A stretch of 64,000 nucleotides of DNA from the IMG/VR virus record IMGVR_UViG_3300048883_000431, positions 1 to 64,000 of that record. The stretch is one strand, 5' to 3'. Source of the DNA: a virus. The position numbers were made by a program, and so were the translations under genes. How positions within the stretch are numbered: position 1 is the stretch's first letter; every line of letters begins with the position of its first letter. The notes under the pieces were generated by a model. It made no database searches. It had not been told where the DNA came from and worked only from the letters and a program-made list of their open reading frames with translations. Below are positions 1 through 51,531 of this stretch, in pieces.

Positions 1-2
1 TT

Positions 3-275
3 GCAGGCATCGCTACCGCCACATTTCGTGCTGTCACGGAGCCACAGGCGAACATCCTTGTGGGACTGACCGTGGAGATGCGGGACAACCTAACATTGAT
101 CGAGCGGAACACACGGATGACCGCAGAAATTCTCGGCGGTGACGTTCTAGGTGCCTTGGCTGCGCAGGGAGCCAACGCACAGAATCAGGCGGCGGGGGCT
201 CCCTCAGCCCAGCAAGCGTCTGTGAACGACCGAGAACTGCTGGACGAGGGCTTTGCTGCTGATGGGAACCTCTAA
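3..275 (+). CDS. Tape-measure-like protein, C-terminal end (5' truncated by window edge)
   Basis: The reading frame is open from the left edge to a stop at 275 and gives about 90 residues. It clearly resembles the last ~95 residues of the tape measure at 43527-50195: both share TFRAVTEPQAN, then (T)(V/I)EMRD, NTR-TAE and D-LGAL. The DNA is also close near GTCAC-GAGCCACAGGCGAAC. Tape measures set tail length and are ejected with the DNA. The two copies have diverged and the last 35 residues differ. The next gene downstream (468) is also related to a short remnant behind the other tape measure, so the homology extends past the gene end. This may be a second tape measure or a duplicated 3' end; the missing upstream part would decide. 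Confidence 0.7.
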   Translation, partial: AGIATATFRAVTEPQANILVGLTVEMRDNLTLIERNTRMTAEILGGDVLGALAAQGANAQNQAAGAPSAQQASVNDRELLDEGFAADGNL

Positions 276-313
276 GACTATACTCACATAGGCACGAGAC
301 CCAGGAGGACAGC

Positions 314-382
314 ATGGCAAACCAAGACGTACGGCACTACCCACAGGTCTTCAATGTTGCTGCGGCCGCAGACGCCGACTAG
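314..382 (+). CDS. 22-residue ORF with a strong ribosome binding site
   Basis: An ATG follows AGGAGGACAGC, a near-perfect ribosome binding site with good spacing. The frame encodes 22 residues starting MANQDVRHYPQVFNV and ending in an Ala/Asp-rich tail before TAG. It lies in the gap between the tape-measure end and the virion gene at 468. Its style (short polar start, then a PQVF or PTFT-like stretch) recalls the N-termini of the ORFs at 468 and 50303, but the match is too short to call homology. Function is unknown. A possible -10 box, TATACT, lies at 279-284. Confidence 0.4.
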   Translation: MANQDVRHYPQVFNVAAAADAD

Positions 383-467
383 GCAAAGGAACCTTTCGGG
401 AACACCTGTCGGTACATCCCTCCCGGCGGGCCGACTCGTCACTGTACTATGAACGAAGGGGCATATT

Positions 468-1859
468 ATGGCTCAGCCGGACGAACGTGACATTCTACTA
501 TCGCAGACTACGGTGCCCACGTTTACAGCGAACGTGTACACCTCGTCTTGGGTCCGAGGGGCAGACTGGGAACGAGTGGTTGGTGTGATCTATTCCAACC
601 AGGCCAGCATCGCGTCTGGGTTCAAGATAGAGCAGTCTATTGACCGGTCAACGATCTTGGACACGCAAACCTACACCATAGCTGCGTCAACAGGTACCCG
701 AGTTGAGGCCCAGGTCGTTGCCTCGTGGTTCCGGGTATCGTTCGAGCATGGTGGTGTAGCCCCCACAACCTTCCAGCTAGAGGCGTACGGCAGCATTGCG
801 GTTGTTGCCAGTTCCTTGCTAGGAAGCTCTGTAACTGTTGCAGGAGCCGCTGCCGAAGACGCTGCGGTAGTTGGTGATCCGGTACTTACTGGTGGTCGTT
901 ATGATTCCAGTGACAGATCGCTAGACGATGGTGACGTAGGCGCACTTGCGGTCACTGCGGCTGGCGAGGTCAAGATTTCAAGCGGCATAGGCGCTACGGG
1001 TCTTGGCAAAGCAGTCGATGGTGTCGGTGGTGCAACAGATACTGGAATCGCCGTTCTCGCCCTGCGGGATGATGCCCTTACAGCATTGACGCCGGTTGAC
1101 GGTGACTACGTGCGGTTGCGCGTGGATGCTAACGGCGCATTGTGGACACGCGACGACATTCTCGAAGCGGTCGTATCGGGATCGGAACTGCAAGTTGATG
1201 TTGTTACCCTACCAGGTGTAAGTGCCGAAAATGAGACTCCGGGAAGCGGCATGCTTATCCAGGGGGATGATGGTGGCGCAATGGGGGGCAACGTCAGGAA
1301 TATAGCAATCAATACTGCTGGACACCTACAGGTCGATACCACCGATGTTGTTCCGGGTACTGGCGCAACCAACTTGGGTAAAGCCGAGGATGCTGCGCAC
1401 ACTAGTGGCGACGTAGGTGTGATGGCGTTGGCCGTCCGTAACACCATCTTGGCTTCGTTGAGTGGCGCTGATGGCGATTATAGTGCGCTGCAAGTCGACG
1501 ACAACGGCGCGCTGTATCAGGTTCCAGGCGATCATATCGACATGGTATCGGTTGCCGGGACACAGGCGACTGCTGCGAGTACTTCCGTGATTTCTGCTCC
1601 GGGCGTGGGCAAAGCGGTCAAGATTCTGGGCGGGAACTTCCAACAGAACGCGGCCAGTCCTACCAATCCGCAACGCATCGCAATCGAAAATGGAACGGGC
1701 GGCGCAGAGAAATTCGTGGCGCGTCTCTCGGCGAATGATGGCGCAGGAATCGGCTTCTCGCATCCTGTCATCATGTCCGCGAATAACGCTGTGCATCTGG
1801 ATTCCGACCAAGCCGATTCGTTCATCTGGTCGTTGACCTACACCATCGTGGATATGTAA
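468..1859 (+). CDS. Virion-associated protein with two internal repeats
   Basis: 463 residues, no signal peptide or membrane segment. The N-terminus (MAQPDERD, then TVPTFTANV) matches the 28-residue ORF at 50303-50389, which lies at the equivalent place behind the other tape measure. Two repeats are visible at about residues 170-230 and 300-355, each with G-G-T/N-LGK, a run ending in ALR or AVR, DGDY, and V-NGAL. Repeats of this kind are common in phage tail or decoration proteins, so a structural role is inferred from repeats and position; no enzyme motif is visible. The next gene starts directly after its stop. Codon use is less GC-rich than in the main virion block. Confidence 0.65.
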   Translation: MAQPDERDILLSQTTVPTFTANVYTSSWVRGADWERVVGVIYSNQASIASGFKIEQSIDRSTILDTQTYTIAASTGTRVEAQVVASWFRVSFEHGGVAPTTFQLEAYGSIAVVASSLLGSSVTVAGAAAEDAAVVGDPVLTGGRYDSSDRSLDDGDVGALAVTAAGEVKISSGIGATGLGKAVDGVGGATDTGIAVLALRDDALTALTPVDGDYVRLRVDANGALWTRDDILEAVVSGSELQVDVVTLPGVSAENETPGSGMLIQGDDGGAMGGNVRNIAINTAGHLQVDTTDVVPGTGATNLGKAEDAAHTSGDVGVMALAVRNTILASLSGADGDYSALQVDDNGALYQVPGDHIDMVSVAGTQATAASTSVISAPGVGKAVKILGGNFQQNAASPTNPQRIAIENGTGGAEKFVARLSANDGAGIGFSHPVIMSANNAVHLDSDQADSFIWSLTYTIVDM

Positions 1860-2156
1860 ATGGCTACGCATCGAGACTATAAGATCGTCCGGTTCTCGGT
1901 GGATCGGGCGGCCGTGCGATTCTTCGAGGGTGAATACCAAACACCGGTCGATGATCCTAATATCGGGGAGTTGGCGACTGATCCGGTGTATGTGCGTACT
2001 AGTGGGGGTGATCTAGTCTCATACGACTTCGCCTCGGATTGCACATACGAACGACTGGTGGATTTCCTGAACGACAAGCTGTCATCCATAGGCTCGTTGG
2101 ATAGCATCCCTGAACAGGTCCGGGTGCGTGAGCCGGACCTGATAGAGAAGACTTGA
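1860..2156 (+). CDS. Hypothetical protein, 98 residues
   Basis: The ATG directly follows the TAA of the previous gene, and its own stop overlaps the next start by one base (TGATG), so three genes appear translationally coupled. The product is 98 residues, acidic, soluble in appearance, starting MATHRDYKIVRFSVDRAAVR. I do not recognise a family. Its place between two virion-like genes suggests a small tail or adhesin-associated protein, such as an assembly factor, but this rests on position only. Confidence 0.55.
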   Translation: MATHRDYKIVRFSVDRAAVRFFEGEYQTPVDDPNIGELATDPVYVRTSGGDLVSYDFASDCTYERLVDFLNDKLSSIGSLDSIPEQVRVREPDLIEKT

Positions 2157-3235
2157 TGCGCCATCTTAGCGACGAACATTTCGATCAGCCTCTCATGCAG
2201 ACGCTAGTGCAGGCGCACGCTAATACTGCGCGTGGCCGGGAGCAGCTTTGCATCGCGGACGACGTTCCCGAGGGCCGCAGCATCATTGGGCTGCACCGCA
2301 ACCGCATGATTTGGCTTGCGGATCAGCAATATCCTGGCTGGCTTGGGGCGCAGCGACAACTATGGGAGGAACGACGCGCGGGGCGGCCGCACAGGCTGGT
2401 CGCAGACATACGGTGCGGCAACAAATTCACGGCGCGACTGCACGCATTGCAGCAGCAGGACGATCTGCACCCCTCTCTGCTCAGATCGTATCTGCGCTGG
2501 CGTCAGCACGGACTTCCGTATATCCCCGGCATCAGCGTGCGCACGGCCTACGCAGACTCAGCGACCCACTACCCTGACCCGAATCCAGAAACCACGAGCG
2601 TAGACGGATACGTATATCGCTACGTGCCGGGGTCTACGTGGGCGAGTCTCCGCGACGGTGCCGGGAATGCGGTCAATGCTGGCTATGGATGGTTCTACCC
2701 GACCTACCTGGACCCTGGCTCATCCTCCGGCCTGTGGGATTTGATACTACGGTCATTCTTTCTGTTCGACACGAGCGCTATAGGTGCAGGGTACTCCATC
2801 GACGCGGCCACGTGTAGCCTGTACGGCATGAGCGGGACAGACGGCGGGGGCCTCGCGCCAAGCGGGAATATCTATGCTTCCAACCCGGCCAGTAATACGA
2901 CCCTCGTCAACGCAGATTACGCGGCTGTCTCTAGGGTGCCATTTTCCGATGCCATCACCTACGCCGCATGGGATATATCAGCCTACAACGACTTCGCCTT
3001 CAACGCAGCCGGGCTGGCGGCCATTGATCCCGAGGGTATCAGTAAATTCTCGGGGCAGAGCATCGCTGACGCGACTGACACAGAGCCGACGTGGAGCGTT
3101 AACGCTAATTCCTACACGCGGGCACGAAGCGCCGAATACACCGGCACCACGCAAGACCCCAAATTGGTGGTGACTTACACCGTCAGTAGTAGCTATCGCG
3201 GCTTCATTGATCGGCTTCTTCTAGGGGTGGGCTGA
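2156..3235 (+). CDS. Tail adhesin-like protein with C-terminal beta-sandwich
   Basis: 359 residues. The ATG at 2156 overlaps the preceding stop. The N-terminal third (to about residue 125) is Arg/Gln/Leu-rich and likely helical, and may attach the protein to the virion. From about residue 150 the sequence reads like the secreted or viral beta-sandwich often annotated DNRLRE or CBM96-like: an LFDTSAI strand, a YASNPASN stretch, a PFSDAITYAAW stretch, and near the end SAEYTGTTQDPKLVVTYT. In phages this fold is typical of tail-tip or fibre proteins. A receptor- or glycan-binding role is inferred. It closes the small virion block at the left of the window; the next gene is unrelated and compositionally foreign. 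Confidence 0.6.
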   Translation: MRHLSDEHFDQPLMQTLVQAHANTARGREQLCIADDVPEGRSIIGLHRNRMIWLADQQYPGWLGAQRQLWEERRAGRPHRLVADIRCGNKFTARLHALQQQDDLHPSLLRSYLRWRQHGLPYIPGISVRTAYADSATHYPDPNPETTSVDGYVYRYVPGSTWASLRDGAGNAVNAGYGWFYPTYLDPGSSSGLWDLILRSFFLFDTSAIGAGYSIDAATCSLYGMSGTDGGGLAPSGNIYASNPASNTTLVNADYAAVSRVPFSDAITYAAWDISAYNDFAFNAAGLAAIDPEGISKFSGQSIADATDTEPTWSVNANSYTRARSAEYTGTTQDPKLVVTYTVSSSYRGFIDRLLLGVG

Positions 3236-3265
3236 TCTCGGATCGCTGGAGTGGACATACACGAC

Positions 3266-3586
3266 ATGATTAGTGCTACGGAAATAGCCCGTGATAAGGT
3301 TCTGGAACTTCTTGGTGATGAGTACGGTGAAGGGTACGGACTCAGGGTTAGGGTAAGTGGTGGTGGATGTAGTGGTATGCAATATCAGTTAGGATTTGAT
3401 ACACCACAAGATGGAGATAGAGTTGTTGACGAAGGTGGTCTACTTTTGATGGTAGATATGAAGTCATTGATTTATCTCAATGGTTCCGTAGTAGATTATG
3501 CAGAAGGTCTTATGGGTGCAGGTTTCACAGTAGACAATCCCAACGTAAGGTCTTCGTGTGGGTGTGGTGAGTCTTTCAGTGTCTGA
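3266..3586 (+). CDS. A-type iron-sulfur cluster carrier (HesB/IscA/ErpA family)
   Basis: About 106 residues, the usual family length. The N-terminus MISATEIARDKVLELL is typical, and the three ligand cysteines are present: one in GGGCSGMQY and two in SCGCGESF near the C-terminus. Family members receive iron-sulfur clusters and pass them to apo-enzymes in the cytosol. I chose the ATG at 3266 because it gives the conserved family start; a GTG at 3251 would add five residues. It is much more AT-rich than its surroundings: 3361-3480 holds 45 G/C in 120 bases. It stands alone between phage virion genes and a convergent early block, which suggests recent acquisition. Members of this family are known from environmental phages as auxiliary metabolic genes. 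Confidence 0.9.
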   Translation: MISATEIARDKVLELLGDEYGEGYGLRVRVSGGGCSGMQYQLGFDTPQDGDRVVDEGGLLLMVDMKSLIYLNGSVVDYAEGLMGAGFTVDNPNVRSSCGCGESFSV

Positions 3587-3651
3587 ACGCGTGGGCGATA
3601 TAGGAGCGTGCGGTGCCTCGGCACACCGTATGCGTAGTCGGTCTCGGTCAT
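3496..3651 (-). CDS. Possible 51-residue ORF antisense to the iron-sulfur carrier gene
   Basis: On the minus strand an ATG at 3651 follows GGAGGCCTGAC, a good ribosome binding site placed at the stop codon of the nuclease gene at 3653-4213. The frame runs 51 residues (start MTETDYAYGVPRHRTLL), and its last ~30 codons lie antisense to the 3' end of the iron-sulfur carrier gene. The first ~20 codons look gene-like; the rest may be a run-on into inserted DNA. No family is recognised. If the carrier gene was inserted here, it may have replaced the natural 3' end of this ORF. Confidence 0.3.
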   Translation of the reverse strand: MTETDYAYGVPRHRTLLYRPRVQTLKDSPHPHEDLTLGLSTVKPAPIRPSA

Positions 3652-3652
3652 G

Positions 3653-4213
3653 TCAGGCCTCCAGAATGCTGTAGTCGCCCATGCGGTCCATCTCGTCGAG
3701 GTGGAACCAGTACCAGGCCCCTGACTTGGTGGACTCGTTCTTCTTCCGGCGCGTGTCGATGAGATGATGGATAGGGGCCTGGTAGACGCCAGTCGGGTAT
3801 GCGTCGGGCGGCGGCGGCTGGCGGTACTTCCGGGCGCGTGCACGATCCACCTCTGTAGGTTCTCCAGATTCGACTGCCAGAACCAGCTTCACAGGGATTT
3901 GGAAGTAGTCCCCGTAGATACGGTAGTCCTCGGAGCGTTTGCCCTCCACGCTGAATCCGAACACATGCCCGTAGATGTCCCAGCTCACGGTGTGCTCGTA
4001 TTTGACCTCGACCGCGACCGGACCTCGGGGGCCCACCACCTGGATGTCGGGCCTGCAGACCCTGACGCCCCCTGCGTCGACGTAGTGGTGCGTCCCGATG
4101 CGTAGAGAGGTATGCCCCAAGCGGTTGCTGAGAGCCATGAAGAGGTCCTCGTGGCGTTCCCCCTGGTCCCTCTGGCGTTCCCAGTCCGCGTCCTTGGTGC
4201 GGGCGTCCCTCAT
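3653..4213 (-). CDS. Putative PD-(D/E)XK superfamily nuclease
   Basis: 186 residues, started by ATG after GGGGAGTCCGAC. The core signature is visible: RPD at residue 56, a short hairpin, then VEVK with Glu69 and Lys71, which fits D-Xn-ExK. A Glu near residue 22 in an N-terminal helix could be the extra acidic residue of the fold. Such small phage proteins include Holliday-junction resolvases, recombination nucleases and restriction-like endonucleases, which cut DNA with Mg2+. Which of these it is cannot be told from the sequence. It lies at the 3' end of the leftward early block, followed only by a short doubtful ORF. Confidence 0.6.
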   Translation of the reverse strand: MRDARTKDADWERQRDQGERHEDLFMALSNRLGHTSLRIGTHHYVDAGGVRVCRPDIQVVGPRGPVAVEVKYEHTVSWDIYGHVFGFSVEGKRSEDYRIYGDYFQIPVKLVLAVESGEPTEVDRARARKYRQPPPPDAYPTGVYQAPIHHLIDTRRKKNESTKSGAWYWFHLDEMDRMGDYSILEA

Positions 4214-5945: not shown

Positions 5946-6161
5946 TCACAGGTCCCTTCGCCACGACTGGGGGAGACTAGCGGGGTGGTTGTGCGTGTAG
6001 GGGATGTGGAACTCGAACGTCGAACTGATCCAGCTCGGGAGGTAGAAGCGGGCACCGTAGAGGGACACGTATCGTTCGCCCTTGTCCCTGAAAACCCGCA
6101 GCGTCCATACGTGGTGGTCCCTGACCTTCTCCGACCGTATGTAAGGCGCGCCCTGGCTCAT
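5946..6161 (-). CDS. Hypothetical protein, 71 residues, coupled to dnaB
   Basis: The ATG at 6159-6161 overlaps the stop of dnaB (ATGA), so it is translated as part of the helicase operon. The 71 residues start MSQGAPYIRSEKVRDHHVW and look beta-rich and basic. No known motif is visible. Phage genes directly behind dnaB are sometimes helicase loaders or single-strand binding proteins, but this one is too short for either and I do not assign a role. Confidence 0.5.
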   Translation of the reverse strand: MSQGAPYIRSEKVRDHHVWTLRVFRDKGERYVSLYGARFYLPSWISSTFEFHIPYTHNHPASLPQSWRRDL

Positions 6162-7501
6162 TCCCTCATCTCCTCAAACAGTAGAATCTCGGCAGTGAAC
6201 GCCAGGTTGATGGTTCCCAGCGCGCCGTTCCGGTGTTTCCGTATGATGATCTCGGTCATACCCGCGTCGGGGGAGTGCTCGTCGTAGTAATCGTCGCGGT
6301 AGAGGAACATGACGATGTCCGCGTCCTGCTCGATGGCCCCTGACTCGCGTAAATCGGACAACATGGGTCGTTTATCGCCTCGGCCCTCCACAGCGCGGTT
6401 CAACTGCGACAAAGCGACCACACAGACGTCCAATTCACGTGCCAGTTCCTTCAGAGTGCGACTATACTCGGAGATTTCCTGCTCTCTGGACCGATTCGCG
6501 TTCACTCCACCCGACAGAAGCTGCATGTAGTCGAGAATGATGACCCCGAGCTTCGGATGTCGCAGCTTTAGCCGCCGCGCCTCGGCGCAGACCTCCAGAA
6601 TCGTGATCCCTGGGGTGTCGTTGATGTGCATTCGCGAGTTTTCGAGGTATCCCGCCGCCTGGGACATCCGTTTCCAGTCTTCCTGGGCTAGATGGCCTGT
6701 TCTGAGCTTCCCCATCGGGATTCTGCCCGCAGTAGAGAGCAAACGGGTCATTATCTGCTCCCTACCCATCTCCAGGGTGAACAATGCGACCTCAACTGCG
6801 TCTTCGTCGTCCCTAGCGGCGATATTCATGGCGATGTTATGTGCAAACGCGCTTTTGCCCATCGAGGGACGCGCAGCGACGATTATGAGGTCGCTCTTGT
6901 TCAATCCGTAGATATGATCGTCGATGGAGGGGATTCCGGTCGGGATTCCGACCAGTTTGCCCTTTCTCTTGTACACTTCCTCGATATAGGCGAAAGTGCT
7001 GGCTAAAACGTCGTTGAAGCCCGCAAAACCGCGATCTCGGAGGTAACTGGCGTCAAAAAGCGCCTTTTGGGCGTTTGCGACGACTTGGGGCAGTTCTATG
7101 TCCAAAGAGCCCGCATCTGCGAGAATATCGGACGCAGCGGCGACTAAAGCGCGTCTAGTCGCCCTATCCCGCACTATTTCGGCGTAATACTCGCAATTCG
7201 CCGCAGATGGGACCGATTCCTGAATATTGTAGAGATACATCGTCCCGCCGACTCTGGCGAGATCGTCGCTGGCTTTAAGCTCCTCAGCGAGCGTTAGAAG
7301 GTCAATCGGGTTTCCCTTCGCGGTCAGCCGCAGTGCGGCGGCATATAGGAGCTGATTCTTCCCAGCGAAGAAAACCGTCCTCACCTCACCCAAAATCGGG
7401 ATTACGGCGTGAATCGCGTCCGGGCGCTGCATTAGCGCCCCTAAGACGTGAGTTTCCGCGTCTAGCGCGTGTGGGGACGCATCTGGGGCGTTAGTCGCCA
7501 T
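6158..7501 (-). CDS. dnaB: Replicative DNA helicase, DnaB family
   Basis: 447 residues, the usual length. The N-terminal DnaB domain (DAETHVLGALMQRPDAI near residue 13) precedes the RecA-like motor. The motor has Walker A in ARPSMGKSAF (about residue 213), a SLEM-like motif FTLEMGREQI, Walker B VIILDYMQLL, and the RESGAIEQDADIV block with its arginine and glutamate. It forms a hexamer that unwinds the fork using ATP. Start is the ATG at 7501, after GGGCGGGAGACTGGTAA. It lies in the leftward block together with nucleotide-metabolism genes, while DNA polymerase is in the rightward block at 19.7 kb. No primase gene is recognisable in the window. Confidence 0.97.
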   Translation of the reverse strand: MATNAPDASPHALDAETHVLGALMQRPDAIHAVIPILGEVRTVFFAGKNQLLYAAALRLTAKGNPIDLLTLAEELKASDDLARVGGTMYLYNIQESVPSAANCEYYAEIVRDRATRRALVAAASDILADAGSLDIELPQVVANAQKALFDASYLRDRGFAGFNDVLASTFAYIEEVYKRKGKLVGIPTGIPSIDDHIYGLNKSDLIIVAARPSMGKSAFAHNIAMNIAARDDEDAVEVALFTLEMGREQIMTRLLSTAGRIPMGKLRTGHLAQEDWKRMSQAAGYLENSRMHINDTPGITILEVCAEARRLKLRHPKLGVIILDYMQLLSGGVNANRSREQEISEYSRTLKELARELDVCVVALSQLNRAVEGRGDKRPMLSDLRESGAIEQDADIVMFLYRDDYYDEHSPDAGMTEIIIRKHRNGALGTINLAFTAEILLFEEMRE

Positions 7502-7574
7502 TTACCAGTCTCCCGCCCTTGATTGCGTCGATGTTGACGTAGCCCTCCCTGTAGTCCAACCCGCACCCAAAGTG
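7491..7574 (-). pseudogene. Fragment of a class I SAM methyltransferase gene
   Basis: Between dnaB and the next gene upstream, one minus-strand frame reads GCGLDYREGYVNIDA and runs into the first codons of dnaB before a stop. This is the methyltransferase motif I region seen intact in the gene at 34798-35388 (GCGTDYREGFVNVDA). The DNA match is also clear, including ACTACAGGGAGGG. A TAG lies just upstream in the same frame and no ATG is present, so only about 27 codons survive. It may be a relic left by recombination, or a short expressed peptide from a TTG. Confidence 0.55.
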
Positions 7575-7580
7575 CTAGCT

Positions 7581-7808
7581 CTATCCACGGTCCAGCCTCC
7601 GTTGCTCTTTCCGGTCGGCCCGCTTCTGGATGCGCTCCGCCTCGCGCCTCTTGGCACGGCAGGGGGTTCTGTGCGACACGATGACCCGCCCCGGTGTCCC
7701 CTTCTCCTGGTAGCAGGGGAGCGACCTATCGACGCTGTGCTGCGTGATCGGCGACTGGAGGTGGTCCATCTCCGCGATACGTTTCGCCCACGTCTGTCCT
7801 GGCTTCAT
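7581..7808 (-). CDS. Hypothetical basic protein, 75 residues
   Basis: The ATG at 7808 overlaps the stop of the deoxynucleotidase-like gene (ATGA). The product starts MKPGQTWAKRIAEMDHLQSP and becomes very basic in the second half (RAKRREAERIQKRADRKEQRR), with two cysteines. A longer in-frame reading upstream is the shadow of the neighbouring gene. No family is recognised; the basic helical tail may bind nucleic acid. Confidence 0.5.
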   Translation of the reverse strand: MKPGQTWAKRIAEMDHLQSPITQHSVDRSLPCYQEKGTPGRVIVSHRTPCRAKRREAERIQKRADRKEQRRLDRG

Positions 7809-8371
7809 AACGGCTTCCTCAATCGGCTTGCTGGTCCTACGAGGTAGTGAAACGACTCCCAGAGGGCGAGCTTCTTGTCGACCGCGCCCCAGTCTCCGCA
7901 TCGGAACCGGGCGTCGGAGTTTCGGTTCCAGGGCTGGTCCATGGCGATACACGGGAACCCCTCGGCGTCGAACACGGCGATCTCTGTGGGACGGTCCTCG
8001 ATGTGGCACTGGACGCCCAGCTCGGTCGCCTTCGCCATCTTGGTGCCGCCCTTTGCGTGGTGGACCTCCGGGTCCGGGAACCACCGCGAGAGCCACCCCA
8101 CGCTGTCGATGTCTGGGTTGCGTGACGTGATGAAGACGACCTCCCGATCCGTCAGGACCTCGACAGCGCCTGGGATGGGCATTACCATGTCCCACTCCAT
8201 CCGATGCCACACAGCGGACACCTCGTCGTCGGTGAAGCCGAGAGCCGCGCCCAGGTCCCACTCGGTCAGGTCCTTGTGCCGGTAGCGCGTCCCGTGCAGC
8301 CGGTTCGCCTGCTTGAGCCACTCGCCCATCGCGTCGCCGACGACACCGTCGATGTCGCAGGAAATCCTCAT
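7805..8371 (-). CDS. HAD-superfamily 5'(3')-deoxyribonucleotidase-like phosphatase
   Basis: 188 residues. HAD motif I is DIDGVVGD at residue 6 (nucleophile Asp and general acid Asp), motif II is FITSRN near residue 80 and motif III/IV is HIEDRP near residue 130. The cap between motifs I and II is short, as in the nucleotidase (NT5C) group that removes phosphate from deoxynucleoside monophosphates. Together with dCTP deaminase (13269) and an Nmad1-like protein (10784) it suggests active reshaping of the nucleotide pool. A sugar-phosphate phosphatase role cannot be excluded, given the heptose-kinase-like gene at 14111. Confidence 0.7.
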   Translation of the reverse strand: MRISCDIDGVVGDAMGEWLKQANRLHGTRYRHKDLTEWDLGAALGFTDDEVSAVWHRMEWDMVMPIPGAVEVLTDREVVFITSRNPDIDSVGWLSRWFPDPEVHHAKGGTKMAKATELGVQCHIEDRPTEIAVFDAEGFPCIAMDQPWNRNSDARFRCGDWGAVDKKLALWESFHYLVGPASRLRKPL

Positions 8372-8416
8372 GCCTTTTTCTTTCTGTGAGAGGCTCCTCG
8401 TTGAGCATGGCCCACA

Positions 8417-9049
8417 CTACGGGAGCAGATCAAACGCTCGGTTCACCCAGCCATTGATGAACGTGAGTTGTGACGGGTCTCGCTTCACGATCCCTGCATA
8501 GTAGAGCATCTGCCCATGTGCTAGGGATACGACTGCCGCCTGGACGAAGCTCTCGTTTCGTCCATCAGCATCCATGGTTGTGTACGAGTTGACTCTGGCG
8601 GCTGTGCCGGGGCCATACGTACCGTCCGCTGACGTACCTACAAGTGCTTGTAGCTTTCGCACGCCTGCCTTCAGAAGTCCTGTCCCGCCGTTGACTTTGA
8701 GGTCATAGAGTTTGCGTGCCACTCGCAGGCTGCTCACGTCGGTGACGTGTACTCGCCGTGAGGGGTCTGCCGGTTTGTAGAGCCATCCGAAGTCGCCGTA
8801 GAAGCTGGTCACGCCGTCTTGGATGGCCTGCATAGGCTCATACAGGCTGAGGTCTATCGGACCCTCACCCCAGTCCGAGCGTGATATAGCATCCACGTCT
8901 GCCCACCACCTCAGCTTGGGGTGGTGCACCCGACTCACCCCACCCACAGTCTCACCTCCGCGATCTCTTGGGTTGTTCGTCCATGTGAGCAGCCCACCTT
9001 CGGATTCGATGGTAGGCTCGAATATCTCTCGCATCCGTGAAGCGTTCAT
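8417..9049 (-). CDS. Endolysin, GH108 muramidase with peptidoglycan-binding domain
   Basis: 210 residues from the ATG at 9049, which overlaps the stop of the nuclease gene upstream and follows AGGAAAGGAGCAAACGGA. The N-terminus has the GH108 signature: ESEGG (catalytic Glu, about residue 16), NNPRDRGGETVGGVS and later YEPMQAIQDGV. Residues ~95-205 (LKVNGGTGLLKAGVRKLQALV, split here) match the predicted peptidoglycan-binding type 3 domain that usually follows GH108. It cuts the glycan backbone of peptidoglycan at lysis. No signal peptide is seen, so it needs a holin; the two-span membrane protein at 9513 is the nearest candidate. A second endolysin of another class is at 18517. Confidence 0.85.
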   Translation of the reverse strand: MNASRMREIFEPTIESEGGLLTWTNNPRDRGGETVGGVSRVHHPKLRWWADVDAISRSDWGEGPIDLSLYEPMQAIQDGVTSFYGDFGWLYKPADPSRRVHVTDVSSLRVARKLYDLKVNGGTGLLKAGVRKLQALVGTSADGTYGPGTAARVNSYTTMDADGRNESFVQAAVVSLAHGQMLYYAGIVKRDPSQLTFINGWVNRAFDLLP

Positions 9050-9516
9050 TCCGTTTGCTCCTTTCCTAGCCACTCCCAGGTTCCGAGCGCCGGGCGCTTG
9101 CCTCCGGTGTAGAGGTTGGCATGGCCGGACGTAACCATGGCGCGGTTGATGTCTGTCATGGTTCCGTCCTCTGCTGAAGATAGTGGATCGGTCCACAGAG
9201 AGACCATGTACCTCCCGTATTTCCCGGTACGCTCATCAATGTCTCCCGAGCGTCTACGGATTTTGTGGGTTTGAACGATGATCTTCTCGGGGCGGTGTGT
9301 AGAGGAGTTGTGTAGGAACGCACTGAGCGCATTCTTGGCCGCGATCCCCTTCGACTTCTCCGGCTCTGGAGTCCGTGAGTGGGACTCCGGCGTATTGATC
9401 CCGTACAATCGCACTCGCCGTTCGATCAGGACGCCAAACCCGAGGTCCATCGTCATGTCCAACGTATCTCCGTCGATGACTCGGAAGGATTTGACACCGT
9501 AGTAGAACAGGTTCAT
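9046..9516 (-). CDS. Staphylococcal-nuclease-like (SNase) protein
   Basis: 156 residues from the ATG at 9516 (MNLFYYGVKSF). The OB-fold nuclease core is visible: VIDGDTLDM (Ca-binding Asp), RRVRLYGINTPE with the catalytic Arg and Glu, and TGKYGRYM with the second catalytic Arg. Members cut DNA or RNA with Ca2+. No signal peptide is present, so action inside the cell is likely, such as degradation of host nucleic acid. It overlaps both neighbours by ATGA, within the lysis-like run (membrane protein, SNase, endolysin). Confidence 0.85.
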   Translation of the reverse strand: MNLFYYGVKSFRVIDGDTLDMTMDLGFGVLIERRVRLYGINTPESHSRTPEPEKSKGIAAKNALSAFLHNSSTHRPEKIIVQTHKIRRRSGDIDERTGKYGRYMVSLWTDPLSSAEDGTMTDINRAMVTSGHANLYTGGKRPALGTWEWLGKEQTE

Positions 9517-10160
9517 TGGAACGAATCTCCCATTCGTCGTAGCATGTGCGCTTTCGCCTCCTGTTTGATTTCTCCCCACTCCCCGTTACCGGATGTTTCC
9601 AGGCGTTCGAGTATTTTGGCAGGGACGTGTGTTTTTTCAGCGGCGGCTTCTATCCCGAACCCCATCGCCAATAGGTTTGCCGCTTCCGCCAGTTGTTCGC
9701 GCACCGCATCTTCCGGTGGGGGAGCTACGGGTGGTGGTGGCGGGGGCGGAGAAGTCTCTACTTCCAAGCTCGCGCGGGCCGTCTCGACGGATTGTGTCAG
9801 AGTATCAGCGGATTCTTTGAATGCGTCCACCTCCCCTGTCTTCACGGTGTCTATCTGTTCAGCCATCGCCATCATGTCCTGCGCGACCGATCCTAGACTT
9901 TTTTGCCCAGCTAGGACAAGTGGGATCGTCTTGTAGAGGTACACTGTCAGTGCTGTGGCGGCGGCGGAAGCGGTAATGAGCGCGGTGACCCCTCCCATAT
10001 CGGTGGTATGTAGGAGTGCAAGCCAGATCACCAGAGTCCCGAGGAGTTTCCCAGCCACGAGCAGCGTCGTCTGCGCCGTCCTCGTATCGGGGGTCGCGAA
10101 GGGCACGTCCGGCTTTTCTACGGGGACCGTGCGGGCAGTGCTGTAAGATGGGTGTGCCAT
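9513..10160 (-). CDS. Two-span membrane protein with coiled coil and proline-rich linker
   Basis: 215 residues. Two hydrophobic helices lie at about residues 31-50 and 56-78, followed by a long helical, acidic region (AMAEQIDTVKTGEVDAF onward), a run of seven prolines near residue 140 and a C-terminal helical domain. The start overlaps the upstream sigma-like gene (TGATG) and the stop overlaps the SNase gene. Directly upstream of SNase and endolysin, it may be the holin or a membrane partner of lysis. Its cytoplasmic part is far larger than in usual holins, so another membrane-anchored role is possible. Confidence 0.55.
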   Translation of the reverse strand: MAHPSYSTARTVPVEKPDVPFATPDTRTAQTTLLVAGKLLGTLVIWLALLHTTDMGGVTALITASAAATALTVYLYKTIPLVLAGQKSLGSVAQDMMAMAEQIDTVKTGEVDAFKESADTLTQSVETARASLEVETSPPPPPPPVAPPPEDAVREQLAEAANLLAMGFGIEAAAEKTHVPAKILERLETSGNGEWGEIKQEAKAHMLRRMGDSFQ

Positions 10161-13223: not shown

Positions 13224-13246
13224 CCTTCTAGTCACGGGTGTCACGG
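13224..13246 (-). repeat. Inverted copy of the CCGTGAC iteron/ribosome-binding-site module
   Basis: Read on the minus strand, 13246-13231 is CCGTGACACCCGTGAC, identical to plus-strand 13907-13922, and 13238-13224 is CCCGTGACTAGAAGG, identical to plus-strand 13970-13984. The AGAAGG serves the gene starting at 13214. Confidence 0.75.
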
Positions 13247-13268
13247 CCCGCCGGGAGGGGGTTTACCG

Positions 13269-28340: not shown

Positions 28341-28350
28341 GGAGAGTCAC

Positions 28351-43526: not shown

Positions 43527-46500
43527 ATGGCGCTAGTCCGCATTGCCATTCAGGCCCACTCGACCGGCTTCGACAAGGCCGCCCGGGACGTCAACCGGGC
43601 GGTCACTGATGCTGAGAACGCTCTCACACAGCACGCTCAGGGTGCCCTTGCGAACCTGGAGCGCCAGGCCGACAATGCGCTCATCGCGGTTCGCGGCGTC
43701 ACCGCCAAAATCTCCCAGGAAGGCAAGATCGAGGACCTCCCCAGGGCCTTTGAAGAGGCCACGAGGACGTTCAAGGACTTCGCGGAAGCGAGCCGTGGCG
43801 GTGTCCAGAACCTGAAGCTGATGAAGCAGACGATCAACGGCATCACCTTCGAGTTCGATGCCATGGCGAATGCTGCCGAGAACGTCGGACGCACGTTCAC
43901 CGCCGCCGGTCAGAAGGCCGTCGACCAGGCACGCGACCAGCTTGAGCTCGAAGAGAAGATCATCCGGGCCAGGGAGCGCTCGGCGCAGGCGTTCACCGCC
44001 TCACGCGCGCAGATCGACCGGGCGGGCGGCGTCCTTGCCAGTGACATGGGCCAGCAGGCGGCCATCAACGATCCCGCCGTCCAGGCCGCGCGTATCGCCT
44101 CGGGACAGGCGCGTGCGCGTCAGACCACCGCAGCGGATGCGCTCGCCGTCGGTCAAGGAACCATCGGCAGGGGGGAGCACGTCGCGGATGTACGGAAGGA
44201 GATTCGGGTACAGACCGAGCTCAACCGGAAGATGGCGAAGGCCCTCGCTCTCCAGGAGCAGCTCAACGACGCGTTCAACTTCGGGAACCGCACCGCCGCG
44301 ACCCGCGCAAAGACCAAGGCGCTCAACAAGCAGAACGTCGAGCTACGTGAAGGACAGGATCGTGTGGTGGCGCTTCGGAAGGCGGTCGTCAGCCTCGACC
44401 GTGTGCTGGAGGAGGGGGACACCGAGGTAGACGCCCTCACCCACAGCATGGAGTTCCTTACGGCCGAGTCGGGAAAGGCCGCCAAGAAGCTGGCGTCGCT
44501 CCAGATCGCACTGGACCGTCTGAATGTAAAGGGCGGGGGGTCGAAGGTAGACCGGCAGGCGCTGAAGGAGAAGATCGAAGAGCAGCAGGCTCTCCTCCGG
44601 TCGATTGAGAAGGTGCGTCGGACTGGACTGGGCGGGAGCATTCCGGGGCCTGGCGCGCGTCCCTTCGGCGACCTTGAGTCCAAGAGCCTCCGGGAGCTCC
44701 AGGTCGAGATCGACAAGCTCGACAAGAAGAACCAGAAGGCCGCCGATAGCACGCAGGAACTCAGGACTGAGATTCACGAGCTTCGCGGGGAGGAGCTGGA
44801 GAAGGCCGACGAGGCCGTTCGTGTGCTGGACCGTCGGCTGACGGACGTGGCCGAGACGATTGAGACCAAGGACGTCACCGCGCTCAGGAAGCTCGAACTC
44901 GCACTCGAACGGTCGTCCAAGGAATTCGACGATCTCAGGATCAAGGCTGACAAGGCCGAGGACAAGCTGCGCATCGCGCTCGAAGCGGGTATCGAGGAGC
45001 CCGCGCGCCAGGCGGAGAAGGAACTCAAGGACCTGGAGAAGCAGCTCGACAGGGTGACGACTGCGGGGGAGCGCACCACGCGTGAGATGCGCGAGCTTGC
45101 GTTGTCGACCATCCGCTCCGGCGGTGACGTATCGAACATCGACGCGCCCGGCTTTCGGAAGGAGGGAACGGGCGGTGGGCGTGGGGGCGGTGGGCGTGCC
45201 CAGCGTGGTACCGTAGACTTCACCGACGTCAAGAGGGAGGTGGATAAGAAGAACCCCTTCGGCGGGTTCTCCCGATTCGGTTCCAAGGTCCTCATCATCA
45301 CCGGGCTGGTGTACACCGCGCTCGGTCTCGCGCAGGCCGCCTTCCGTGGGTTCACGTTCGCGGCTAACTCCGTGGCTAAGGCGGAACGATTCAGCGACAC
45401 CCTGAACACCTACATCAATCTTTCGGAGGAGTCCGGGACCGGACTCGAATCCCTCGGGCGCGTGTTCAACGCACTGGGCGGTACCGTCGACCGCTTCTCG
45501 GTAGTCACGGCGGCCGCGAAGGCGCGCATGTCGGGACTGGCCGAGGAGACCATCCCGCAGATCGCGCAGGCGGCGCGTATCCTGTCGCGCGCGGTGGGTG
45601 TTGAGGTGACCGAGGCGTTTGACCGCCTGTCACGTGGTATCGCGAAGCAGGAAGTTGAGATTCTCGACGAACTCGGGATCATCGTGCGCCTGAACGACGC
45701 CCTGGAGAAGTGGGCGTTGAAGAACGGACGCACCGTGGAGAGCCTGAGCGCGCAGGAGCGACAGGTCGCCTTCGCGAACGAGGTGCTTGGTGTTCTTGCC
45801 GCACGGTACGCCCAGATCGGCACGCAGATGACCCGGACGTCCGACAAGCTGGACATCTTCAAGGCGCGCTGGGCCGACCTCAGCATCACGATGTCCCACG
45901 GACTGCGTGGCTGGGCCGCCGTTGGGCTTGGGCTCGGGAACTTCGCCGCGAACATCCTTGAGGGCGTCTTCCCGGCCACGCTGAAGATGAAGACCCGGAT
46001 GGAGCTACTGGATTCGGTTGTCCAGAACTTCGGGACGAGTCTAGAGGGTGTGATGGGGCGTAGGGGTACCATCGCGGACGCCATCGCCCAGATCGAGCTG
46101 ATGTCCGCCGGTATTCGTGCGGCGTCTCCTGGGAGCCTCCTCTATCAGGAGCGTCTTGACGAGATGAACCGTGTGCTCGGTAAGATGGTGGTCACGTTCC
46201 CCGAGCTCAACACCGTGATCCGAAGCACGAACTTCCTGCTCAAGGGAAGCACCGACGAGCTACGCAACTCCTTGATCGTCCTTCAGTCCGAGTTCGAGGT
46301 TCTGAGGAAGGCGTCGAATGAGAAGCGCGGCAAGGCGTTCGCCTCCCTGCAGCTTGAGATCGTAATTCTTACCGAGCAGCTCCAGGGCGCAATCGAGAAA
46401 AGAGACGATCTTTTCTTATCAGCCCCATTTGAGTTCAAGGCCATGGCGAAGGCCCGCAACGAGGTAGCCCTCCTGACGAACGAGCTCTCGTCGCTCCAGG

Positions 46501-49500
46501 GGATGTTCGGGGGCGGGAACCTCACTGGCGCGAAGCTGGGTCCCGTTGGCGAGGCGGCGCTCACCAACCTGACTCAGATTTTCCAGGGACTCGACGTGGG
46601 CACACGTCTCGGTGGGGTCGGGGGTGTGGACAGCGACCAGCGGAAGCGCGTGGCGAACCGAGTCGAGCAGTTGATGAGCTCGCTGGGTCCATCGGTGGAG
46701 CAGGGCATCCTGACGGAAAGAGCGGCGGAAGGTATTCGCGGGCAGTCCGTGGCCTTCATCTCGGGGGATCGAAACGAGGCGATGCGCGCCGTCAGCCAGA
46801 TGCTCGACATCCTCTCAGAGGGCGTGGAGAACGCGGCCCCCGACGCGACCAAGGCGTTCATGTTCGACCTCTTCAATGACCTCCGGGAGTCGGCCCTCCG
46901 TGCATTCGTCGACGCCGGGGGAAGAACCGGGGGAAGCGGCCTCGACCCGACCAAGACCCTGAAGGAGATCATCGAGTCGCGGCGTCCCGGCGGGCAGCGT
47001 TCCTTTGACATTCCCATACCCTTCACCGAGGCGTCGCGGCGCGGGCGCGCTGCGCTCAGTGGCAGTATCGTGCCCCTGGGCGGCATCAAGGCCGCGACGG
47101 CGCAGGCAACGCTGGCCGAGACGCTGGCGAAAATGGTCATCGAGGGCGAGGGTATCGCCAAGTCCAACACGGAACTACAGGGACTCACGGCGGCGTTCAT
47201 CAAGGGTGAGCGTGCGAGGCTCGCCCAAGAAATCCTCGACATCAGGGAGCTCACGCAGCTCAAGGTCACTGCCAAGGAGCAGGCCATTGAGGAAGCGCGC
47301 ATCACGGAGCTCATCAGGAAGGCCACCACGAAGTCTAAGCAGACCGAGCTCGACATCTCCGAGACGACCAACAGTATCATCCGCAACCGGGTGAGCACGT
47401 TCGCGCAGTCCGCTGGTAACCGTCCGGTGGGTAAGCTGGGTAAGGTCGTCGAGGGACTCCAAGCGGATGTCCTGACTCGCGAGGGCGACCTGAGCGCCCA
47501 AGTCCTCGCCGCACAGCAGAAGGAAGTCGAGGCACGCCTCGCCTCGGAGTCCGCCACAGCACGTAAGGCGGTCGCCGACTTCCAGGCCACCATCTCGACC
47601 ACCGTCAAGGGGTTCACCGAGGAGCTGTCCGACCTACGCGCGGCGATCCGCGAGAGCGACAACGAGACCGGCGAGACGGTCACCGCCCTCTCCGACGGCA
47701 TCACGGAGATGACGGAACTTCAGACGCGTGCGGCTGCTAAGGCCAAGGAGCTGGAGACGCTGATCACCAACGACCTCTCCAAACTGATGACCGGCGACAT
47801 CCCGGCCGCCGTGAAGGCGATGCTAACGACCCTGTTCGCCGTCACCGACACCGTGGGCGACGATGTGCGTGCGCGTGAGTCCCGGTTCCCGGCTCTGTTC
47901 CGCGCTGGCAGCACCGGCTCCGAATCGTCCCTGCGGAACCTCGGCGACGCGCGTACGCGCACGGCCGACAAGCAGGGCGACTTCGCACGACTGTTCAATC
48001 TCACCGGCTTGGGCGACATCTCGGGAATCTCGGGACTGTCCGCCGGGCGGCGTCAGCTCGAAACGCAGGCCAGTGGATTCGAGAACGCGGCGGGGCCGCT
48101 GCGCAAGGTCGCAGACCTGGGCGAGGCTCGTGCGGCGAAGGTCCTGGACCTAATGAACCAGGCGACCAGGGCCGGTAGGGGACAGGGCGACGAGTTCATG
48201 GAGCTCGCCAACATCTACAATTCCCTAGAGGAAGAGTCCGAAAAGCTCCGAGAGGAGTTGGCAGCCCTACAGGTGCAGGCGGACGCGACGCGCGTCACGG
48301 GAACCGACCTTCTGGCGGATTCGGCAACGCGACTTGCGGGAGCCCTCGGAACGAACGCAGCCCGCGCAGCGCGGGAAGCATCCCGTAGCCTGGAGGCACT
48401 CACCGGCACCCCGGAGAAGATGGACCGTCTCCGCGCGATCATGGGCGGACGGGCAGCGGACGTCTCCGCGAACCTCGGCGGACGTGGGGATGAGTTTGCG
48501 TTCGGGTCGCCCGCCGAGGTCGACCGCCGCCGCCTTACCCTGGAGACCCAGGTCGAGCAGCTCACGAAGCGGCGCGACGCACTCATCACGAGCACGCGGA
48601 CTGCCAAGGAAGGCGGCGCGTCGAGCGAGTCTCTGAGCGGCGTACGCGCCCAGACACACGAGTTGTCGCGCCAAATCCTGACCCGTCAGGTGATCTTGGA
48701 CGACCTTCTCGTCCAGTCGGACGCTATCCGCGCTTCCATCGTCGCTGGTGACTTCGCCAAGCTCGACATGGACATCCAGAAGGTCGTGGAGTCGGGGAGC
48801 GTCGAGACCATTACCCGCAACATGGGCTTCCTCAACGATGTCCTCGACGAGATGAACGACTTGACCGATGACGAGCGTGGCGGGATCAAGAAGCTGATCG
48901 ACGATCTCGATGGCGCGAAGAAGGCTGCACAGAACGCACGCGAACTCGCCGACGAACTCAAGCGCATCAAGAGTGTGTCGTCCGCCCGACAGGGCGCAAT
49001 ACGCGCCGTGGGCAGTGTGGCTGGCGGGAGGGCCGGTAGTGTGCTTGGCTCGATTGCGGGCATCGTGGGGGGCGTTACCTCGTTCTCCAGCATCGCGGCT
49101 ACGCGCACGGCGTCCCACGAGAGTAACCTCGCCGAGCGGGACGCCGGAACAATCAACCAGGGAACCTTCACCAACAACGAGTCCGCCATCAACACTGTCG
49201 CCACCATGGGCAAGATCGCGGCCGGGGCGGAGCTTGTCGGGCAGGGCATCAGCATCGCCACCACGGCCTGGTCGATGTTCAACGCGCGTGCTGAGGCAGC
49301 CAAGCAGAAGGTGCGTGAGATTCAGGAAGCCGCCAACGCGATGGGTGACGCCATCGCAGGTGGCATCGCGGCGGGCTTTGATGAGGGAGCGCAGTCGTTC
49401 GACGACTTCATGCGCAACTTCCTCCTGAACGAGTTTAGAACGAACCTCGCGGAGACTGTGCTGGAGACGTCAGGGATACGCGCGTTCACCGACGACCTGG

Positions 49501-50195
49501 CGGCCACCAAGACCCTCCTCGCGGATACGACCGACAGGGTTGACGAAATCCTTGTGCAAAACAAGGGACTCAACAAGTCCATCACCCCGGACGTCCTGAC
49601 TAACCTCAGCAAACTGGACCCGGCACTACTGCAGAACGCTAAGAACCTCACGGCACTCCAACGCCTAACCATCCTCAAGAACGCGGGGGCCGTACTACCA
49701 CAGAATGAGTTCGGGGATACGATCCCCCAGGGGACGACGGAATTCCTACAGACCCTCGGAAACGAGTTGGCCACGCGTGCGAAGCTCGGTGGGCAGCTCC
49801 AGGACGCGGCCGGGGAGGTCGAGGGGTTCAGCGAGGCCATCGCGGGTGTCCAGCCGATCTTCGACGGGTTCCGGGAGGCGCTGGGACTGAGCACTGGCGC
49901 GGTGAAGGGCGTGTCCGAGATCGCGACGTCCACGTTCCGCGCTGTCACCGAGCCACAGGCGAACCTGTTGCTCAGTGCCACCATCGAGATGCGCGACCTG
50001 CAGGTCCAGATCGAGTTCAACACACGGCGCACTGCGGAGGTCCTCACACACGACATCCTCGGCGCGCTGTTGGCGAACGGGTTCAACGCGGGCGCAAGAG
50101 AGCCAGAGGACGTTCCGACAACCCCCGCAAACCTGAAGCTCGGTGACCTGAAGCAGGGGGCCGAGCAGGTCCAGAACGGTCAGGGAGTCCTCTGA
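43527..50195 (+). CDS. Tape measure protein
   Basis: 2222 residues, mostly helical with long coiled coils. Hydrophobic segments lie near residues 586-605 (VLIITGLVYTALGLAQAAF) and in the C-terminal part near 1820-1860 and 1890-1915, which may act in membrane passage of DNA. By the usual rule of about 0.15 nm per residue the tail would be some 330 nm long. The last ~95 residues are related to the ORF at 3-275. Start after GAGGGGTAAGCC. It is preceded by the frameshifting chaperone and followed by a short ORF and the distal tail protein. Confidence 0.96.
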   Translation: MALVRIAIQAHSTGFDKAARDVNRAVTDAENALTQHAQGALANLERQADNALIAVRGVTAKISQEGKIEDLPRAFEEATRTFKDFAEASRGGVQNLKLMKQTINGITFEFDAMANAAENVGRTFTAAGQKAVDQARDQLELEEKIIRARERSAQAFTASRAQIDRAGGVLASDMGQQAAINDPAVQAARIASGQARARQTTAADALAVGQGTIGRGEHVADVRKEIRVQTELNRKMAKALALQEQLNDAFNFGNRTAATRAKTKALNKQNVELREGQDRVVALRKAVVSLDRVLEEGDTEVDALTHSMEFLTAESGKAAKKLASLQIALDRLNVKGGGSKVDRQALKEKIEEQQALLRSIEKVRRTGLGGSIPGPGARPFGDLESKSLRELQVEIDKLDKKNQKAADSTQELRTEIHELRGEELEKADEAVRVLDRRLTDVAETIETKDVTALRKLELALERSSKEFDDLRIKADKAEDKLRIALEAGIEEPARQAEKELKDLEKQLDRVTTAGERTTREMRELALSTIRSGGDVSNIDAPGFRKEGTGGGRGGGGRAQRGTVDFTDVKREVDKKNPFGGFSRFGSKVLIITGLVYTALGLAQAAFRGFTFAANSVAKAERFSDTLNTYINLSEESGTGLESLGRVFNALGGTVDRFSVVTAAAKARMSGLAEETIPQIAQAARILSRAVGVEVTEAFDRLSRGIAKQEVEILDELGIIVRLNDALEKWALKNGRTVESLSAQERQVAFANEVLGVLAARYAQIGTQMTRTSDKLDIFKARWADLSITMSHGLRGWAAVGLGLGNFAANILEGVFPATLKMKTRMELLDSVVQNFGTSLEGVMGRRGTIADAIAQIELMSAGIRAASPGSLLYQERLDEMNRVLGKMVVTFPELNTVIRSTNFLLKGSTDELRNSLIVLQSEFEVLRKASNEKRGKAFASLQLEIVILTEQLQGAIEKRDDLFLSAPFEFKAMAKARNEVALLTNELSSLQGMFGGGNLTGAKLGPVGEAALTNLTQIFQGLDVGTRLGGVGGVDSDQRKRVANRVEQLMSSLGPSVEQGILTERAAEGIRGQSVAFISGDRNEAMRAVSQMLDILSEGVENAAPDATKAFMFDLFNDLRESALRAFVDAGGRTGGSGLDPTKTLKEIIESRRPGGQRSFDIPIPFTEASRRGRAALSGSIVPLGGIKAATAQATLAETLAKMVIEGEGIAKSNTELQGLTAAFIKGERARLAQEILDIRELTQLKVTAKEQAIEEARITELIRKATTKSKQTELDISETTNSIIRNRVSTFAQSAGNRPVGKLGKVVEGLQADVLTREGDLSAQVLAAQQKEVEARLASESATARKAVADFQATISTTVKGFTEELSDLRAAIRESDNETGETVTALSDGITEMTELQTRAAAKAKELETLITNDLSKLMTGDIPAAVKAMLTTLFAVTDTVGDDVRARESRFPALFRAGSTGSESSLRNLGDARTRTADKQGDFARLFNLTGLGDISGISGLSAGRRQLETQASGFENAAGPLRKVADLGEARAAKVLDLMNQATRAGRGQGDEFMELANIYNSLEEESEKLREELAALQVQADATRVTGTDLLADSATRLAGALGTNAARAAREASRSLEALTGTPEKMDRLRAIMGGRAADVSANLGGRGDEFAFGSPAEVDRRRLTLETQVEQLTKRRDALITSTRTAKEGGASSESLSGVRAQTHELSRQILTRQVILDDLLVQSDAIRASIVAGDFAKLDMDIQKVVESGSVETITRNMGFLNDVLDEMNDLTDDERGGIKKLIDDLDGAKKAAQNARELADELKRIKSVSSARQGAIRAVGSVAGGRAGSVLGSIAGIVGGVTSFSSIAATRTASHESNLAERDAGTINQGTFTNNESAINTVATMGKIAAGAELVGQGISIATTAWSMFNARAEAAKQKVREIQEAANAMGDAIAGGIAAGFDEGAQSFDDFMRNFLLNEFRTNLAETVLETSGIRAFTDDLAATKTLLADTTDRVDEILVQNKGLNKSITPDVLTNLSKLDPALLQNAKNLTALQRLTILKNAGAVLPQNEFGDTIPQGTTEFLQTLGNELATRAKLGGQLQDAAGEVEGFSEAIAGVQPIFDGFREALGLSTGAVKGVSEIATSTFRAVTEPQANLLLSATIEMRDLQVQIEFNTRRTAEVLTHDILGALLANGFNAGAREPEDVPTTPANLKLGDLKQGAEQVQNGQGVL

Positions 50196-50237
50196 ACTCC
50201 GCCGTCTAACCTGGAGTTCGCAAAACGGAGCGCGCGT

Positions 50238-50245
50238 GCTATAAT
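50238..50245 (+). promoter_or_regulatory. Extended -10 promoter behind the tape measure
   Basis: TGCTATAAT (TATAAT at 50240-50245), 58 bases before the short ORF at 50303. No clear -35. Same form as at 31223. Confidence 0.55.
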
Positions 50246-50302
50246 AGATGGGGGACAGTCGCCAGTGGCCTTGCCCGAAACACCTTGTATGGGAGTTGTC
50301 CA

Positions 50303-50389
50303 ATGGCGAGTCCAGAGGAACGCGACGTTGTCGTAAACCAGATCACGGTGCCTACGTTCACCGCAGATGTATGGAATGAGTTGTCGTAA
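50303..50389 (+). CDS. 28-residue ORF, N-terminal remnant of the 468 gene family
   Basis: ATG after GGGAGTTGTCCA. The 28 residues (MASPEERDVVVNQ, then TVPTFTADVWNELS) align with the first ~28 of the 463-residue protein at 468 (MAQPDERDILLSQ, TVPTFTANVY). Its stop overlaps the next start (TAATG). So behind this tape measure the gene has been cut to its first 28 codons, either as a relic, a translated leader for the distal tail gene, or a small functional peptide. Confidence 0.6.
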   Translation: MASPEERDVVVNQITVPTFTADVWNELS

Positions 50390-51531
50390 TGGCGAACCTG
50401 GCGTGGACCAACGCGGGGATACCCGTATCCTACAAGATCAACGGCGTCAACATCCGCGAGGAGTTCGGGGTTGAGATGTCGTTGCCCAACGCCCTTATGC
50501 CCGGCGTTCGCGGACGGACATCCAATCCCTCCCAGACGCACGGGGAGGTTGACAGCGGGGCCTTCTACGGCACACGCCAGTTCTCGGTGACCGGGCGGAT
50601 CATCGCCACAACCCACGCGTTGTTCACGTCCCAGATGGACGAGTTCACCGCGTGGCTTCGACTGGAGGACAACCTCCAGCAGTTCTCGCTTCGGGGGCGC
50701 ACCCTATCGGGTATGCGACTGGAGATCGCGGGTCACGGGCTGGCGGAGCCCAGGACCCTCATCGTCACCTACAGTGGCAATGCCACGATCAGCCCGATCT
50801 CCACCGCCCACTTCAAGGGGCGTGCGTACGACTTCGGGTTGGGGCTGAAGGCGTCCTACCCGTTCTGGCTCACCCAGGAGGAGACGGACGCCCACAGGGA
50901 CACGAGCGCTCACCAGTGGATACGGGTACCGAAGGACACGTCGGGGGCCTTGGGCACGTCCCAAACATACCCCGAATACACACTCGACGGGCCGGTAAGC
51001 GGAGCGAATGTCACCATCGCGCACGGGCGATTCGGACTGAGCGTTCGGTTCAACGACCTGTCGCTGGCGGAGTCGGGTAACGGACTGGCGTTCACCGCGA
51101 CCAACATCTACGGTGACTCGACAGTGGGGACGTTCCAGAACCAAGTGGAGCTCACCGCTGTTGCGTCGACGGAGGGCGAGGGCTCGGGGGAGAGCGTGGG
51201 GCTGCACGGGTCGGCAAGCGGCGGGTCCGGCTCACTCATCAAGCTCCCCATCCGAAACGCGCAGTCACTGGCCGTGAACCCGAATGACTCGCAGGACGCG
51301 GACTACTTCAACGGCGCAGTCGGAACCTTCGGGTGCTTCTTCAAGCCTAACTTCGACATCATAGCGGGCGTGCAGGACAGCGAGAAGCGTAACGTCCTCC
51401 TAAACCTGGGTGCGGCCACGGCGGCGAACAACATGCAGATACGGTTCGCGGATTCGTCGGACAAGCGTGTTGTGGAGCTAAGGACGGTTAACGGCGCGGG
51501 GACGGTCCTGAGCAAGACGAATAACTCGTAA
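50389..51531 (+). CDS. Distal tail protein (Dit-like) ending in half a LamG-like domain
   Basis: 380 residues. The N-terminal ~180 residues look like a Dit/tail-tip protein (ISYKINGVNIREEFGVEMS-like start, GEVDSGAFYGTRQFSVTG, FTAWLRLEDNLQQFSL, RAYDFGLGLKASYPFWL). From about residue 275 a laminin-G/concanavalin-like sandwich begins (FNGAVGTFGCFFKPNFDI, VLLNLGAATAANNMQIRF, VVELRTVNGAGTVLSKTNNS) and stops abruptly at TAA. Strands expected next (EGVWHHLAV...) are found at the start of the gene at 54652. It sits on the tail tip and joins tube to fibres. Confidence 0.75.
   Translation: MANLAWTNAGIPVSYKINGVNIREEFGVEMSLPNALMPGVRGRTSNPSQTHGEVDSGAFYGTRQFSVTGRIIATTHALFTSQMDEFTAWLRLEDNLQQFSLRGRTLSGMRLEIAGHGLAEPRTLIVTYSGNATISPISTAHFKGRAYDFGLGLKASYPFWLTQEETDAHRDTSAHQWIRVPKDTSGALGTSQTYPEYTLDGPVSGANVTIAHGRFGLSVRFNDLSLAESGNGLAFTATNIYGDSTVGTFQNQVELTAVASTEGEGSGESVGLHGSASGGSGSLIKLPIRNAQSLAVNPNDSQDADYFNGAVGTFGCFFKPNFDIIAGVQDSEKRNVLLNLGAATAANNMQIRFADSSDKRVVELRTVNGAGTVLSKTNNS

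Follow-up and report, generated by a model that had tools for sequence, protein, structure and literature searches.

The window analyzed here comprises bases 1 to 64,000 of a virus record of 112,229 bp; the remaining 48 kb were also fetched, and the whole record was examined. At the left edge of the contig, a gene end resembling that of the main tape measure protein (TMP) gene is followed by four plus-strand genes and a short gap. The features of this left segment are listed below.

3..275, plus strand: 3'-terminal part of a second, distantly related tape-measure homologue, extending past the left edge of the contig (similar to TMP residues 2132-2188)
396..433, plus strand: intergenic element of 39 bp, recurring at 13244-13282 (minus strand) and there overlapping the dCTP deaminase gene at its 3' end (85% over 39 positions, E 9e-6)
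468..1859, plus strand: 463-aa probable virion surface protein (22 related viral loci, N-terminus, partial model, fold matches)
1860..2156, plus strand: 98-aa cassette gene, in the equivalent place in contig L036 (position; 19% identity to L036:9655-9939; weak PHROG match)
2153..3235, plus strand: 360-aa probable virion protein; TTG start as listed, later start possible (relatives in L036-L038)
3251..3586, plus strand: iscA/HesB-type iron-sulphur assembly gene (PF01521, E 1.9e-15; PHROG 17776, E 1.4e-33)
3587..3652, no strand: 66-bp gap between convergent genes, likeliest meeting point of left segment and core (composition likelihood; no repeat at the join)

The core of the contig is a long-tailed phage, whose main tail module and head, packaging and replication genes are as follows.

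43527..50195, plus strand: main TMP, 2222 aa (PHROG 3779 tape measure, E 2.8e-14; T5 pb2 and other solved TMPs, E 3.6e-16)
50303..50389, plus strand: 28-residue ORF resembling the N-terminus of 468, with a stop that overlaps the Dit start codon (sequence; E 7e-5, 1.9e-5)
50389..51531, plus strand: distal tail protein (Dit), downstream of the main TMP and without an observed equivalent at the left end (PHROG 33, E 4.9e-7)
Head and packaging: terminase at 23535, portal at 25387, maturation protease at 27147, major head protein at 29370, head-tail adaptor at 37166
Replication: DnaB helicase at 6158 (minus strand), DNA polymerase at 19687

Assignment of the 43527-50195 gene as a TMP follows from its match to TMP family profiles and from the Dit gene directly downstream. 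Residues 542-772 of its product match pb2 and residues 489-761 match PHROG 3779, whereas the C-terminal segment that is present twice lies outside these matches. Judging by the open frames, the structural genes at 14-64 kb are encoded on the plus strand, and long frames elsewhere are mostly found on the minus strand; glycosyltransferase-like genes (40519-42644 and 61884-64031) were observed within the structural region. No match to PF00589 or PF00239 (integrase or serine recombinase) was detected in the record. Tandem prophages in one chromosome, for which an integrase near a prophage end would be expected, were considered and dropped, and circular closure was rejected since the contig ends do not overlap. 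The near-identical contig L033 spans only 23488-28385, short of the left-end join.

Several other features were observed in the part of the contig outside the window. A tract at 108.1-110.9 kb (L006:13100-15950), largely non-coding and richer in AT, contains 15 exact copies of ACA[CA]A[CT]TAGT[TC]G (22 with one mismatch), and the exact copies are all on one strand, occur nowhere else in the record and are often preceded by GGAAAGTATTT; these repeats look like an iteron, operator or partition-site array. At 111.4-112.0 kb (L006:16390-17000), small genes alternate with GC-rich hairpins that resemble one another (type GGCGGCCCGGATGCCGCC). On the minus strand, 69943-72100 encodes three tandem paralogous proteins of ~235 aa, which may resemble sulfotransferases, and neighbouring genes at 97716-100608 matched a VWA domain (weakly) and a MoxR-type AAA ATPase.

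The frame at 3-275 consists of 90 open codons, lacks a start codon and extends beyond the contig start. In a BLASTP comparison with the 2222-aa TMP, residues 3-59 of its product aligned with TMP residues 2132-2188 with 38 of 57 positions identical (67%, E 8e-21), which places the gene with the TMP by homology, while the last ~30 residues gave no convincing alignment to the main TMP. The resemblance of the first 275 bases to a tape-measure end, as described in an earlier note on this DNA, is thereby confirmed and narrowed to ~57 residues. Searches of the whole 112-kb record showed that the main TMP end and the left-end frame match only each other, and no second copy of the rest of the main TMP was present. 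Instead of Dit and tail-tip genes, ORFs 468, 1860, 2153 and iscA lie downstream of the left-end gene, and none of these four matched Dit. No contig extending the left-end gene further was found in the collections searched, and no relatives of the TMP or of its end were confirmed in viral contigs. Searches of isolate phages likewise gave no relatives for the TMP end, for 2153 or, at the DNA level, for the first 4.3 kb.

A second similarity was observed immediately behind the two TMP ends. The product of gene 468 begins MAQPDERDILLSQTTVPTFTANVY and ORF 50303-50389 encodes MASPEERDVVVNQITVPTFTADVWNELS; these are 58% identical over 26 residues (E 7e-5) or 62.5% identical over 24 residues (E 1.9e-5), and the earlier claim of a shared N-terminus thus holds over ~25 residues. 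The order is the same in both places, with a TMP end piece followed by an N-terminus piece. The spacers between them (276-467 and 50196-50302) do not resemble each other (local score lower than the shuffled mean), and we are therefore dealing with two short syntenic pieces and not with one continuous 500-base copy. Of the proposal that a segment exists twice, the two homologous pieces in synteny stand, but the stretch between them is unrelated. With this refinement, the double presence of a TMP end and the start of the following gene is a real and statistically solid sequence observation. Because the 28-residue ORF resembles the start of 468 at the equivalent place behind the TMP, the comparison suggests one ancestral gene that stayed whole in one lineage (468) and was cut short in the other (28-residue ORF), although reuse of a short leader in both lineages is possible. 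The stop codon of the ORF and the start codon of Dit overlap as TAATG, and the ORF may therefore be translated and coupled to Dit.

The genes following the left TMP end form a group with relatives in other viruses. The 468 protein has repeat modules at residues ~166-250 and 283-350, and its structure model reaches a pLDDT >70 for most of residues 357-463 only, the remaining model being unreliable. This C-terminal domain is predicted with fair confidence to be a beta-sandwich, and its fold matched many small phage proteins as well as a phage cement protein. Relatives of 468 occur at 22 viral loci with varied neighbourhoods that are structural-looking by eye. In the 14 records carrying a 468 relative that were examined for this purpose, no TMP match was found, and they supplied no further contig with a TMP immediately upstream of the 468-1860-2153 cassette. 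Three viral contigs (L036-L038) carry relatives of gene 2153, whose C-terminal domain is also found in host surface-type proteins, among them one of 2159 aa from a Dehalococcoidales MAG; the structure model of 2153 (pLDDT 33.5) is too poor for use. Contig L036 (IMGVR_UViG_3300005683_000177) has related genes for all three cassette members, 468, 1860 and 2153, arranged as they are here. However, its GC content is 0.456 compared to 0.57 here, its middle gene is just 19% identical, and its record contains no match to the main TMP; apart from the cassette order, this phage contig is unrelated to the source contig. ORFs 468, 1860 and 2153 look like a virion cassette, with the products of 468 and 2153 probably located on the virion surface, while iscA is possibly a host-derived auxiliary gene.

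The left segment is set apart from the core by both divergence and composition. DNA identity between the matched TMP ends is 61% overall and 42% at third codon positions, and the spacers are unrelated, values that do not fit a recent segmental duplication. Among the 38 identical TMP-end residues, 17 are encoded by different codons. GC3 is 0.56-0.68 in the left genes, with iscA far below its neighbours (0.33), compared to 0.82-0.84 in the main TMP and Dit. The joint fit of the left genes to core codon usage (-0.085) is below the core median (0.218); since four core genes at 6.2-10.2 kb fit about as poorly (-0.110 to -0.013), codon usage alone proves little. In the region 6158-10160, DnaB, a GH108-type endolysin and their neighbours fit the core codon table poorly, while the stretch 6.1-14 kb has a core-like dinucleotide pattern. 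The tetranucleotide correlation of the left genes with the core (0.19) is lower than that of every core window tested (lowest 0.33), and the left segment has the lowest tetranucleotide match in the record, the right end excepted. A compositional kinship of the two contig ends, indicated by one model comparison, was dropped after unrelated phage loci scored alike. Together, divergence and composition favour import over copying. The 39-bp element, whose 13.2-kb copy overlaps a gene identified as dCTP deaminase by Pfam, suggests that the left end is kin to the core lineage; however, such an element is also expected if the left end stems from a related phage.

The transition between left-type and core composition falls at ~3.5-4.0 kb. 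The likelihood of left-type versus core composition peaks at 3538 and is flat to ~4.0 kb; as bases 1-3200 served to train the model, the height of this curve is inflated, and it is the place where the rise stops that is informative. The plus-strand left genes (468, 1860, 2153 and iscA) end at 3586 and face a minus-strand gene at 3653-4213, and both convergent genes flanking the 66-bp gap are apparently intact. No repeat was found at the 3587-3652 join, exact probes of 30-32 bases from both sides of the boundary had no match in viral contigs, and no relative of the first core gene (3653-4213) was found. A break beside a gap between intact convergent genes, with no repeat, favours a natural module boundary.

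The left end is most likely part of the tail region of another, related phage lineage, and among the options raised earlier, two related genomes joined either naturally or by the assembler fit best. We give a probability of about 0.5 to the reading that bases 1 to ~3.6 kb are the tail-module end of such a lineage acquired by natural mosaic recombination; this figure and the lower standing of an assembly chimera below are judgements and not computed values. Tail modules of tailed phages are mosaic, and the left segment resembles such exchanges in that its composition is distinct and its boundary lies between genes, but differs in that the resident TMP is still present, which would make it an addition and not a replacement. 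The common ancestral layout would have been a TMP end and, behind it, a gene with the start M-A-x-P-x-E-R-D; one lineage would have retained this gene in full as 468, and in the other it would have shrunk to the Dit-coupled 28-residue ORF. The block would then be a xenologue, imported by non-homologous recombination and not copied from the main TMP. Import draws support from the syntenic homologous pieces, their divergence, the composition, the intact-gene boundary, the 39-bp element and the L036 gene order. The contig-edge position leaves room for an assembly join, and foreign composition is equally expected of a chimera. Such a chimera, in which the left ~3.6 kb of a co-occurring related phage were wrongly joined to the core, is a tentative but substantial alternative that draws on the edge position, the composition shift near the join and the unusual presence of a second TMP in one phage. 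No published case of the latter was found in literature consisting mainly of papers available without subscription, where apparent matches concerned two chaperones, two proteins compared or two lineages. A random break, however, usually cuts a gene, whereas the shift here adjoins a short gap flanked by two convergent genes that both look intact, and there is no shared repeat at the join to mislead an assembler.

As a subset of the natural case, the virus may possess a whole second tail module, including an entire second TMP, upstream of base 1, as the left frame continues uninterrupted to the contig edge and shows conservation of the TMP end. We consider this unlikely, given that no Dit follows the left TMP end and the TMP search revealed no second set of head or tail genes elsewhere in the record; a full second TMP would be surprising in one phage, and nothing observed requires one. 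Still more doubtful is a long-tailed phage, with no integrase detected, that possesses two full tail modules differing in tape measure and surface cassette and can build two tail types. Duplication of the tail module, another of the earlier options, is disfavoured by the low DNA and third-position identity and the different codon usage: copying of the TMP end and next gene within the genome followed by divergence accounts for two homologous pieces in the same order, but with saturated third positions, unrelated spacers and genes behind the left TMP end that have no copy in the main module, it is highly improbable. Equally improbable is that the left gene encodes some other virion protein sharing a C-terminal docking segment; just ~57 residues are visible, which leaves room for this, yet the matching gene start behind them repeats the order at the main TMP.

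The likeliest meaning of the feature is ordinary phage mosaicism or an assembly artefact. If the join was made in assembly, the extra TMP end and iscA should not be assigned to the source virus, and the feature is uninformative about it. If the natural join by mosaic recombination is correct, the phage gained part of a second tail region while keeping its own. The partial TMP need not function, and tail length would remain under the control of the resident TMP; 468 and 2153, if expressed, would provide a second set of surface or fibre proteins, and the question is then whether the added genes are expressed and whether they change the virion.
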